Shown: piece by piece, positions 3,224-10,937 of the stretch
Layout of the letters: every line of letters begins with the position of its first letter
How positions within the stretch are numbered: position 1 is the first letter of the stretch
NCBI GenBank assembly: GCA_002784795.1
Contig: PFLZ01000029.1
Coordinates: 1 to 16,050, forward strand
Origin: Candidatus Magasanikbacteria bacterium CG_4_10_14_0_8_um_filter_42_12
GTDB lineage: Bacteria; Patescibacteriota; Patescibacteriia; Magasanikbacterales; UBA922
DNA: 16,050 nucleotides
Direction of reading: 5' to 3'
The notes under the pieces: generated by a model
What the model was told of the DNA's origin: nothing
Database searches by the model: none
The model's input: only the letters and a program-made list of their open reading frames with translations
Position numbers and translations under genes: made by a program

Positions 3224-3232
3224 TGCTAGTAT
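3224..3232 (+). promoter_or_regulatory. Extended -10 promoter, TGC-TAGTAT
   Basis: TGC (3224-3226) followed by TAGTAT (3227-3232) fits an extended -10 element, with no clear -35. Transcription would begin near 3239, only about 3 bases before the ATG at 3242. The same TGN-TAGTAT word precedes the phosphatidyltransferase gene and the non-coding RNA block. It would give the sugar-phosphate transferase gene its own start in addition to read-through from the Clp gene. The assignment rests on motif and spacing only. Confidence 0.45.
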
Positions 3233-4824: not shown

Positions 4825-5139
4825 ATGTTTGCAGTAGTATTTACAGGTGGAAAGCAATACCTCGTTGAGGAAGGGCAGACCATCAATATAGAAAAACTTG
4901 AGACCGATATCGGCAGTACTGTTACCTTTGATCAGATTCTTTTGACAGCAAAGGCAGACGGGCAGGATGTTGAAATCGGAACGCCATTTCTCGCTGGCAA
5001 GACCATCACCGCAACGGTGAAAGATCAAGGACGTGCGAAAAAAATTCGTGTTGTCAAATACAAACCAAAAACTCGTTACAAACGAGTCAATGGACACAGA
5101 CAACCATTCACGACTGTCACGATTGACAAAATTGCTTAA
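4825..5139 (+). CDS. rplU: 50S ribosomal protein L21
   Basis: A 104-residue L21, of usual length. It opens MFAVVFTGGKQYLVEEGQTI, contains the beta-barrel core FDQILLTAKADGQDVEIGTPFL, and ends with the family signature in KYKPKTRYKRVNGHRQ. L21 binds 23S rRNA domain II and helps assemble the large subunit. The reading frame is open further upstream to 4750, but the family start is clearly the Met at 4825, and the promoter lies at 4742-4770. L21 is usually followed by rpmA (L27). Here it stands alone between its own promoter and terminator, with a non-coding block next. I see no rpmA in the window. Confidence 0.97.
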   Translation: MFAVVFTGGKQYLVEEGQTINIEKLETDIGSTVTFDQILLTAKADGQDVEIGTPFLAGKTITATVKDQGRAKKIRVVKYKPKTRYKRVNGHRQPFTTVTIDKIA

Positions 5140-5150
5140 ACATCAACAAA

Positions 5151-5179
5151 AAAAGACTATCCACAGGGTAGTCTTTTTT
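5151..5179 (+). terminator. Rho-independent terminator after rplU
   Basis: An 8-bp stem (GACTATCC at 5155-5162 with GGGTAGTC at 5166-5173, one T-G wobble) has a 3-base loop and is followed by six T. It lies 15 bases past the rplU stop. A-rich bases before the stem could let it also work leftward. Confidence 0.88.
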
Positions 5180-5192
5180 GTATGAAATAGTG

Positions 5193-5201
5193 TGGTAGTA
5201 T
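5193..5201 (+). promoter_or_regulatory. Extended -10 promoter for the non-coding RNA
   Basis: TGG (5193-5195) followed by TAGTAT (5196-5201) makes an extended -10. The predicted start, near 5208, falls on the first base of the 13-position terminal helix of the adjacent RNA block. That match supports both promoter and RNA. No good -35 is present. Confidence 0.5.
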
Positions 5202-5207
5202 GTGATT

Positions 5208-5528
5208 GTGCTACGGTGACTTGTGCATAAACCAGAGCCCTAGGGCGTCCTTTATTCGGCGGATTTTCCTTGCGGGGTGCTCCTTAACCTGGTTCATCTC
5301 GTTCGTTGCACGACATCGCGACGAATACAGCACGCCGGTACTCCAGGCCACTGCTTAACTTCCGTTGACCGGGTAATACTGGACTATGGAATTGTGCTTG
5401 TGAGTTTAGGTGGGCGAAAAGGTAATCATCGACACGTCGTTGTTACAGACTAGTCAACTGTGGAGGGCATTGCTCTAGAGAAAGAGGTGGCGGGCGTTCC
5501 TCGTCATATTGTGGGGTCGCCGTAGCAC
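5208..5528 (+). ncRNA. Candidate structured RNA of about 320 nt, family not recognised
   Basis: A 321-base block without a convincing reading frame and richer in GC than its flanks (32 of 60 bases in 5281-5340). Its ends pair over 13 positions (5208-5220 with 5516-5528). An internal 8-bp hairpin pairs 5302-5309 with 5318-5325. Each helix contains one U-G wobble when read on the + strand (5217-5519 and 5307-5320), which becomes a C-A mismatch on the - strand. This and the promoter at 5193-5201 favour the + strand. CCGGU (5335-5339) with ACCGG (5368-5372), and UCCAG (5342-5346) with CUGGA (5379-5383), could form a pseudoknot. Size and closed ends recall RNase P RNA, which the genome must encode, but I do not find its conserved GAGGAAAGTCC and ACAGAA blocks. 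I also find no tmRNA start, CCA end or T-arm, and no SRP GGAA-loop domain. It may be a very divergent member of one of these or something new. Confidence 0.6.
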
Positions 5529-5542
5529 ACCCCACTACATTC

Positions 5543-5570
5543 AAAAAAACTGCCTCTCTGGCAGTTTTAT
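5543..5570. terminator. Bidirectional terminator between the RNA block and recR
   Basis: AAAACTGCC (5546-5554) pairs with GGCAGTTTT (5560-5568) across a TCTCT loop. Read leftward, the hairpin is followed by seven U and ends recR, overlapping its stop codon. Read rightward, the stem ends in UUUUAUGUUU and can end the non-coding RNA. Confidence 0.8.
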
Positions 5571-6169
5571 GTTTGTGTTCGATGTTTGAGTGCACTTCCT
5601 AGTGTTATCTCATCTGCATACTGGAGATCACTTCCCATGGGGAGACCGCGTGCGAGGCGAGTTACTTTTACGTCAGGTTTTTCTTTTTTGATACTGTTTT
5701 GCAAATACAGCATGGTCGTCTCTCCTGGAAGGTCAGGATTCAGGGCGAGAATAATTTCTTTGATTGGTTCATTGTTCAATCGTTGCAACAATTCTGCTAC
5801 TTTCAAAAATCTGACACTATCTGGATTGCCAGGTTTGATGACGCCACGGAGTACATGGTATCTCCCAGGAAATGCGCCCGTCTTTTCTATTTGTTGGAGT
5901 TCTTGTGATTCTGTCACAATACAAATTGTCGAGGCATCACGTTTTGGGTCACTACACATTGTGCATGGTGAGGTGTCAGAAAAATCCCAGCAGGTCTCAC
6001 AGCTTTTTATATTTTCAATCAGGCCTTTCAGCGCATTGGTAATTTCGGCGACATCTTTTTTTCCTGATTTCAGCAGATGAAAAACGAACCGTTCAGCGGT
6101 TCGTGGGCCGACGGACGGCAATTTTGAAAATGCTCGAATGAGTTGTTCTATTGGTTTGCTGTACGGCAT
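5567..6169 (-). CDS. recR: Recombination mediator protein RecR
   Basis: A 200-residue RecR of normal length. RecR works with RecF/RecO to load RecA on gapped single-stranded DNA. An N-terminal helix-hairpin-helix (LPSVGPRTAERFVFHLL, 17-33) binds DNA. A four-cysteine zinc site follows (C57, C60, C69, C72 in CETC...CTMC). The Toprim domain starts at TICIVTESQE (81-90) and includes ALNPDLPGETT. The C-terminal stretch RLARGLPMGSDLQYADEITL matches the canonical RecR tail. It lies downstream of ybaB on the same strand, separated by 126 bases that hold an inverted pair of dispersed repeats. Its 3' end runs into the terminator at 5543-5570. Confidence 0.97.
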   Translation of the reverse strand: MPYSKPIEQLIRAFSKLPSVGPRTAERFVFHLLKSGKKDVAEITNALKGLIENIKSCETCWDFSDTSPCTMCSDPKRDASTICIVTESQELQQIEKTGAFPGRYHVLRGVIKPGNPDSVRFLKVAELLQRLNNEPIKEIILALNPDLPGETTMLYLQNSIKKEKPDVKVTRLARGLPMGSDLQYADEITLGSALKHRTQT

Positions 6170-6186
6170 ATATAGCAGAAATAGAA

Positions 6187-6284
6187 TTCTCCCCCTGGTA
6201 AGGGGAGTTAGAGGGGGTTACTTAGAAGCATTGAAAGTGCTAGTCCGTAACCCCTCCCTAACCCTCCCCTACTAGGGGAGGGAA
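6187..6284. repeat. Head-to-head pair of dispersed palindromic repeats
   Basis: Two diverged copies of one small element lie in opposite orientation. One, on the - strand at about 6187-6221, reads GTAACCCCCTCTAACTCCCC and onward. The other, on the + strand at 6247-6284, reads GTAACCCCTCCCTAACCCTC and onward. They are separated by 25 bases. Each copy is itself a small palindrome (CCCCT...AGGGG). A third copy sits inside the glycosyltransferase gene at 9120-9157. The pair can form a large hairpin in any ybaB-recR transcript and could reduce recR read-through or stabilise the ybaB mRNA. Confidence 0.88.
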
Positions 6285-6295
6285 CATTATATTTT

Positions 6296-10238: not shown

Positions 10239-10277
10239 GATATTATCGTGCGATAAAATTCATGAGGCTTTTGTTGA

Positions 10278-10294
10278 AGAGAAATGATTTCTCT
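10278..10294. other. Perfect dyad, possible operator
   Basis: AGAGAAA-TGA-TTTCTCT is a 7-bp inverted repeat with a 3-base centre, 34 bases before the GTG of the broken gene. A TTATCG-TG-CGATAA dyad (10243-10256) and a TAAAAT -10-like word (10254-10259) lie just upstream. These could form a regulated promoter, but no regulator gene is visible nearby. Confidence 0.3.
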
Positions 10295-10327
10295 CTACCG
10301 TTGGCTTTATGAATCACAGGGGGAATT

Positions 10328-10794
10328 GTGAACGGTCCAGCATGGAGATCTCCGAAAGTTCCTTTTGTACCTGAGGTAGTCAGGAATGCCCTGTTAGAGA
10401 GTCGTGTCAAGACGACGTCTCTCTCAATTGTCTATCGGTCTTCTGAAGACATTTGCATTCTGGTTCCACCTTCGGGCAACTGTGTCCATAGAGATGGAAC
10501 CTGCCATGTGCATTGGTATGTCACCGACGCACATGACATTTCGGTCTCTGGAATAAGCTTTATGCGAGTGGTGAATTTTACCAGATTGACAGGGTTTCTT
10601 GCCTTTGCAACGATTTCCCGCCTCTCGTGATTCGTGGCGACACGAGCCGCAAGCAAGGCACGTACGTCGTGGTTGGTGAAGATACCCTCGATCATACTGG
10701 AAAAGTGGTCAAGCGTACTATTCGACGTGTTGTCGTTACGCTAAATGCATCACTTCAAAAAGTCGCCAACATCATCCGGAATGGATGTAGGTAA
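10328..10794 (+). pseudogene. Hypothetical gene split by an apparent one-base deletion
   Basis: The first part reads from GTG 10328, preceded by AGGGGG at good spacing, to about 10540 (…HVHWYVTDAHDI). That frame then turns into unlikely sequence and stops at 10628-10630. The frame one base earlier is open from 10537 to a stop at 10792-10794 and continues sensibly (FGLWNKLYASGEFYQIDRV … VKRTIRRVVVTLNASLQKV). Adding one T to the TTT at 10539-10541 joins the two into about 156 codons. Codon use is GC-rich, like the 8335 gene. I recognise no domain; the product would be soluble with several Cys and His residues. It could be a real pseudogene, an assembly or sequencing error, or less likely a programmed shift, since no classical slippery heptamer is present. 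Confidence 0.6.
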
Positions 10795-10879
10795 GCCGAC
10801 AACGAGAAGCTGATTTTGTTCTTTTTTCCTCGACCCAACGTCTTCACTGACGACAGGGCGAGGAGCTGACAGGAGGGGA

Positions 10880-10908
10880 GAGATGCCGCCGAGAGCAGCG
10901 CGCATCTC
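10880..10908. other. Hairpin in the gap after the two converging genes
   Basis: GAGATGC (10880-10886) pairs with GCATCTC (10902-10908) across a 15-base loop. It lies 30 bases past the stop of the leftward membrane-protein gene and could help end that transcript, although no T run follows in either direction. Confidence 0.3.
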
Positions 10909-10937
10909 CTTCCGACTATGGTTCGTAGCTATACGAA

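Follow-up and report, generated by a model that had tools for sequence, protein, structure and literature searches.

A candidate new family of structured RNA in the rplU-recR gap of Candidatus Magasanikbacteria

What occupies the gap between the tail-to-tail genes rplU and recR in the genome of a member of Candidatus Magasanikbacteria, an uncultured CPR bacterium with a small genome? In the 16,050-nucleotide stretch of DNA analyzed here (the window), a sequence-only reading had pointed to a structured RNA in this gap, which it took to be an essential RNA that had diverged strongly or, alternatively, a member of a new class. The copy in the window (here referred to as own) was compared with those of three other species of the genus, namely, G001 (CG_4_10_14_0_2_um_filter_41_10), G002 (UBA12086), and G003 (CG1_02_41_34). 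It is very likely that positions 5208-5535 of the + strand form a free-standing non-coding RNA gene, and the chances are good that, by the tests applied here, it would represent a new RNA family. The locus shows clearly how compensatory changes can preserve a fold even though the bulk of the sequence has turned over, among species that share 84-91% identity in RecR. What would be new is the RNA family; the mechanism is proposed with low confidence.

Layout of the gap and its transcription signals

Neither a reading frame of 80 aa overlapping 5208-5528 nor an ATG-initiated frame of 40 aa within the gap was found, and GC in 100-base windows is 0.45-0.56 in the RNA block vs. 0.35-0.37 immediately upstream, in line with the GC-richer non-coding block described earlier. 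The same holds for the TGG-TAGTAT promoter with its start at the first paired base: an extended -10 box precedes a predicted start at ~5208, and TGTGNTAGNATGT is found in all four genus members (Table 1). Boxes like TG-G-TAGTAT also precede other genes of the window, e.g., at 3224 and 13179. A consensus promoter scan found no promoters; the -35 of the RNA gene is poor, and the T-run of the hairpin that follows rplU overlaps its position. The RNA is flanked by two terminator-like hairpins (5149-5179 and 5546-5568). The 3' terminator hairpin noted in the sequence-only reading sits just beyond 5208-5528 and is shared with recR; the primary transcript probably ends at ~5570.

The whole arrangement recurs across the genus. 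Promoter box, terminal helix, and 3' hairpin are common to all four members, each of which has a unit of 304-329 nt (329 nt in own and, by the same end definition, 306, 308, and 304 nt in G001, G002, and G003), in gaps of 404-427 nt and in the common order rplU terminator, TGTGNTAGNATGT, P1, interior, P10, recR terminator. A cis-regulatory RNA or riboswitch was considered and rejected because no same-strand gene follows: recR is convergent in all four, and a terminator lies at 5546-5568.

Table 1. Features of the rplU-recR gap (positions in the window)
Feature	Positions	Strand	Evidence or remarks
rplU (ribosomal protein L21), upstream neighbor	4825..5139	+	Pfam PF00829, E 1.8e-35
Terminator-like hairpin after rplU, flanking A-run and T-run	5149..5179	.	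14-nt arms, 93% complementary; in 4/4 genus members
Promoter of the RNA gene, extended -10 box TG-G-TAGTAT	5193..5201	+	TGTGNTAGNATGT in 4/4
Structured RNA, from the P1 5' end through the P10 hairpin	5208..5535	+	fold-based 4-way alignment with controls
P1, 5' strand	5208..5221	+	98.1% of cells paired; two-sided change in 4/14 pairs
J1/2 joining stretch, unpaired in consensus	5222..5233	+	similar in 4/4: UGC[A/U][U/G]A; G001 AGCAGA
P2, 5' strand (CTAGGGC + GTCCTTT)	5240..5253	+	outer helix letters differ in all four
P6/P7 long arm	5330..5416	+	fold-based alignment
P7b tip hairpin (TTCCGT/ATGGAA), inner CCGG-GUAAUA-CUGG	5360-5391	+	letters differ in the four members, pairing kept
P8 hairpin	5445..5461	+	ACAG/CTGT in own; GAAA-loop hairpin in G001/G002
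P2, 3' strand (GGAGGGC + GCTCTAG)	5462..5478	+	fold-based alignment
P9 hairpin	5489..5505	+	fold-based alignment
P10 hairpin GTGGGGT[11-nt loop]ACCCCAC	5511..5535	+	three versions among four sequences
P1, 3' strand	5515..5528	+	same P1 test
Intrinsic terminator, back-to-back with recR	5546..5568	+	sole terminator-like site found in 5100-5650
recR, downstream neighbor, convergent	5567..6169	-	Pfam RecR domains

Conservation of the fold in four species

The terminal helix P1 is formed by GTGCTACGGTGACT (5208-5221) and GGTCGCCGTAGCAC (5515-5528), and a repeat finder reports nearly the same arms (5207-5220/5516-5529, 14 nt, 93%). In a sequence-only alignment of the four genus members, 98.1% of its cells hold standard pairs and two-sided change is seen in 4 of the 14 pairs; slid registers reach at most 58.5% paired, and 9 of 500 column shuffles attain the observed covariation score. 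The terminal pairing noted in the single sequence is confirmed.

Within the interior, letters alone suffice to align only one pair, G001/G002 (z 22); z is 0.9-2.4 in the remaining five. Fold-based alignment, by a Sankoff-type program written for this analysis rather than a published tool, brought all four members onto one architecture, and there is computed support for the + strand, the promoter box, P1, P2, a branched core P3-P8 with the long P6/P7 arm, P9, and P10. Since the four-way interior alignment is fitted to structure and comprises four sequences, it is to be read against shuffles handled identically: 55 of the 90 interior pairs are standard in all four genomes and 46 show two-sided change, vs. 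means of 17.2 and 16.1 and maxima of 32 and 31 in 40 full four-way shuffles. The consensus energy is -86.3 (best shuffle, -37.9), and none of the 40 shuffles reaches the real value on any of ten measures. The outer helix of P2 illustrates the change by eye, with the versions CTAGGGC/GCTCTAG, CCGCC/GGCGG, CCGA/TTGG, and TGTATAC/GTATACA. In 12 tests covering all six genome pairs (z 2.9-8.7), the real interior score was never reached by any of the 30 dinucleotide shuffles per test. Fold-align scores within the RNA family are 22203-30168; those of 72 control comparisons, made with pieces of the RNase P RNA and tmRNA loci of the own genome, blocks from other genera, and reverse complements, do not exceed 18264. 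Most of the RNase P RNA and tmRNA pieces in this set are antisense, and therefore sense-strand pieces were added, for which 24 comparisons (8 of them repeating the 72-set) give at most 14131.

The strand assignment, made earlier from a U-G wobble that exists only on the + strand, is borne out by the same alignment: 55 pairs are standard in all four members on the + strand vs. 21-25 on the - strand, with consensus energies of -86.3 and -82.2 vs. -28.0 and -39.9. The full-length alignment also holds 63 G-U and 8 A-C cells; the four-way comparison is the fairer test, because folding the + strand favors G-U. As to the other structural proposals of the sequence-only reading, the pairs of the rplU/recR homologs do covary in the four genus members by the pair counts above, an 8-pair internal hairpin is present in the predicted fold, and the possible pseudoknot helices are not established. 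In a single sequence, the folding energy is modest (+ strand, z -2.1, with 2 of 100 shuffles as good; - strand, over a longer stretch, z -1.3). When 150 gaps in a 957-kb portion of G002 were scanned for folding, the RNA gap ranked 77th at z -3.6, and in 46 of the 150 the best window was at z -5.6 or lower. Fold energy alone is not diagnostic; genome-to-genome comparison reveals the RNA.

Known RNA families and the range of the RNA

Rfam 15 gives no match at gathering in the window on either strand. With relaxed thresholds, three matches (E 0.3-3.9) are found in 4900-5900, none of which lies within 5208-5535, and none of the 37 matches in the gaps of the relatives (E up to 2) attains the gathering cut-off. 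The new-class half of the earlier alternative is supported; the other half, a strongly diverged essential RNA, is disfavored. Size and terminal pairing do recall RNase P RNA and tmRNA, and the RNAs of CPR bacteria can be divergent. However, both RNAs are found over their cut-offs elsewhere in the own genome (RF00010 on contig C29, 105.5 bits, with no RF00010 match at the locus; RF00023 on contig C99, 103.9 bits), ARAGORN finds no tRNA or tmRNA genes in the window, and the interior scores against sense-strand RNase P RNA and tmRNA pieces in the control range, so that structural similarity to either is not above controls. For these two RNAs the reading is largely refuted. The bacterial small SRP RNA, likewise a structured small RNA gene, has no match here: among 20 genomes of the order, the own genome included, none has an RF00169 match over the cut-off (one sub-threshold match, E 0.31), the window has no match at all, and the Ffh M-domain (PF02978, the Ffh domain searched) is found in 0 of the 20 vs. 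14 of 14 controls. The SRP RNA is disfavored because no SRP is visible for it to serve, and a diverged standard RNA of any of the three kinds is considered exceedingly improbable. Apart from the locus, the joint lack of detection of RF00169 and PF02978 in 20 genomes, 18 of which are at least 90% complete, suggests that this lineage has lost the signal recognition particle; in passages of PMC8321541, SRP loss in CPR is not discussed. A - strand word that resembled 5S rRNA in the sequence-only reading lies opposite 5353-5365 in the P7 arm, and Rfam lends it no support, with no 5S match near it on either strand of 4900-5900 at E up to 5.

A 6S-like RNA that would occupy RNA polymerase offers another reading, in which P1 would be the closing stem, J1/2 and the P9-bearing strand the bubble, and the P2 domain the terminal stem. 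The layout resembles that of 6S: a closing helix leads into an unpaired strand on the 5' side, which faces a 3' strand bearing a small hairpin. 6S also evolves fast in sequence, and RF00013 has no match in the own genome, a silence that says little because this model is insensitive (matches in 5 of 14 control genomes). The RNA is longer than the usual 6S, its core is branched beyond P2, and the locus has no Rfam 6S match; the 6S-like reading is improbable on this analysis. A likeness may also be sought among the orphan stand-alone RNAs OLE, ROOL, and GOLLD, which are likewise multi-helix and supported by covariation; raiA is a further orphan stand-alone structured RNA of bacteria. Unlike these, the RNA here measures 304-329 nt, matches no Rfam family, and has been found in a single genus. 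In its passages on ROOL, GOLLD, and OLE, PMC12286853 describes sequences that are not highly conserved with stems that covary, and many GOLLD members of >800 nt. Within the literature covered, which leaves most subscription papers and preprints outside, no report of noncoding, structured, or 6S RNA in Patescibacteria, Magasanikbacteria, or CPR was found, and for small RNAs in Patescibacteria one paper, on TIGR-Tas, was found.

The RNA is either narrow in range or undetectable elsewhere by these means, as nothing outside the genus was found in 192, 288, or 46 genomes. A DNA search of 192 genomes with the own copy matched own, G001, and G002 only, and one of 288 genomes with the G002 copy matched G002 and G001 only. 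A covariance model (R1) built from G001 and G002 matched only these two among 46 family genomes and, even unfiltered, gave no match on the own or G003 RNA. Because a two-member model misses the other two members of the same genus, CPR bacteria may commonly carry RNAs of this sort that go unseen. Among the 36 recR loci examined (L086-L121, out of 46), a convergent rplU occurs in 29, three of which belong to genus members; the gaps measure 28-2377 nt. Outside the genus, many rplU-recR gaps are too short to contain the RNA, and the gaps of other genera that were inspected hold reading frames or blocks unlike it, with scores in the control range. On these scores, the second block of L090 and the blocks of L093, L099, L106, and L107 were rejected as orthologs; the blocks in the same gap of L090 (two), L093, L099, L106, and L107 have fold z of -3.4 to -6.8 on the + strand and may be ordinary hairpin-rich DNA. 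In two other genera, at L093 (G034) and L135 (G040), structured blocks in the rplU-recR gap have a 58-nt 3' end in common (86% identical), the remainder of the blocks being unalignable; among 288 genomes, this 3' end is found only in G034 and G040, plus a borderline 21-nt match in G027 (E 0.00995). In addition, partial second matches to the C-terminal end of recR occur downstream of recR at G036:C33:29094-29216 (in L083) and G028:C31:13564-13659, hinting at duplication in the rplU-recR gap.

Inverted repeats at the ends, a sharply variable interior, and a gap that holds other inserts in other genera could also be expected of a MITE-like mobile or selfish DNA element. This is very improbable: the RNA occurs at one place each in own, G001, and G002 (the three covered by the copy count), the position is the same in all four members, the interior pairs covary, and the + strand is far better than the - strand. 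No match was found in phage records with the own copy or in plasmid records with the G002 copy; in viral contigs, the 5'-end pattern has 10 matches, none with the P1 3' strand within 700 nt, and the P10 pattern has none.

Turnover of the interior, the P1/P10 choice, and possible function

Divergence along the RNA is uneven. Between own and G001, identity is 95% for terminator and promoter, 92% for the P1 5' strand, 91% for the P10 region, and 58% for the interior, which is the shuffled level (mean 56%, maximum 58%). The interiors of own/G003 (55%), G001/G003, and G002/G003 also fall inside the shuffled range, that of own/G002 lies slightly above it (61% vs. a shuffled maximum of 60%), and that of G001/G002 clearly so (76% vs. 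62%). Own/G003, the closest pair by RecR (91%), have a whole-RNA structural identity of 0.30 vs. 0.61 at recR fourfold sites, and RNA identity is below recR fourfold identity in five of the six pairs, the exception being G001/G002 (0.58 vs. 0.54); these RNA identities are low estimates, as the structural alignment is not identity-maximizing and is one base off register at P1 of G002. Judged from these comparisons, the RNA seems to diverge further than recR fourfold codon sites yet keeps its fold. Exchange of the interior between alleles, or diversifying selection on it, e.g., in an RNA arms race or as self/non-self RNA, would explain both the rate and the mosaic pattern in these four genomes. 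As an account of the locus it is nevertheless unlikely, as there are four genomes and no excess in G001/G002, as the alignment understates identity, and as letters relaxed under a pure fold constraint could contribute; nor does Pfam show an obvious defense gene among 10 proteins of the window.

At the 3' end, the P10 loop comprises most of the P1 3' strand, so that full P1 and P10 are mutually exclusive. The segments flanking the P1 3' strand pair with each other in all four members by eye, as GTGGGGT/ACCCCAC (own, G001), AAGGGGT/ACCCCTT (G002), and GGATGT/GCATCC (G003). Computed energies favor P1 (-20.9 to -25.5 kcal/mol) over P10 (-8.4 to -12.2 kcal/mol): in the full-length RNA P1 (~-21 to -25 kcal/mol) would win, and P10 (~-8 to -12 kcal/mol) would form in transcripts or fragments that lack the 5' strand. 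The choice might then control 3'-end maturation or assembly. The exclusivity may serve as a switch or as a signal for maturation, or it may simply be a by-product; a real switch is considered rather unlikely.

The explanation that best fits the locus as a whole, and one that is held on balance to be probable, is an independent non-coding RNA gene on the + strand with a conserved promoter box and fold, in which P10 competes with P1 and which would act in trans. A trans-acting RNA or RNP is favored, with selection on the fold and the ends and not on the core letters. The RNA would be bound by a protein or another RNA via its fold and conserved ends (P1, J1/2, P10); its role as a scaffold or decoy is put forward tentatively, at somewhat less than an even chance. 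A more far-reaching proposal is that selection keeps fold and ends while the core turns over at a rate above neutral, either because alleles are swapped between the conserved ends or because selection is diversifying. The RNA would then be a variable module for recognition or decoy, conceivably in conflicts with phages or neighbors, and its 3' end would toggle between P1 and P10. On this view the rplU-recR gap would be a home for such RNAs: two other genera have the common 58-nt 3' end there with the rest unalignable. This proposal is quite unlikely as it stands.

Further structured stretches were seen in the window and elsewhere. In another convergent gap, a 676-base block (10245-10920) folds unusually well, with z of -4.6 and -5.5 on the two strands and 0 of 20 shuffles as good. 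Positions 10404-10748 have a 66% identical counterpart at G002:C2:59897-60227, ~4 kb from recR in both genomes; mismatches are spaced like codons in just one stretch, so the block may be either coding or an RNA. By eye, a long inverted repeat of the CCCCTCCCTAACCCTCCCC type lies at 6185-6290 between recR and the ybaB/ebfC gene, and at L002 the tmRNA gene carries closely similar palindromic stretches around AAAGCAGC...GCTGCTTTTCGTG on both sides.
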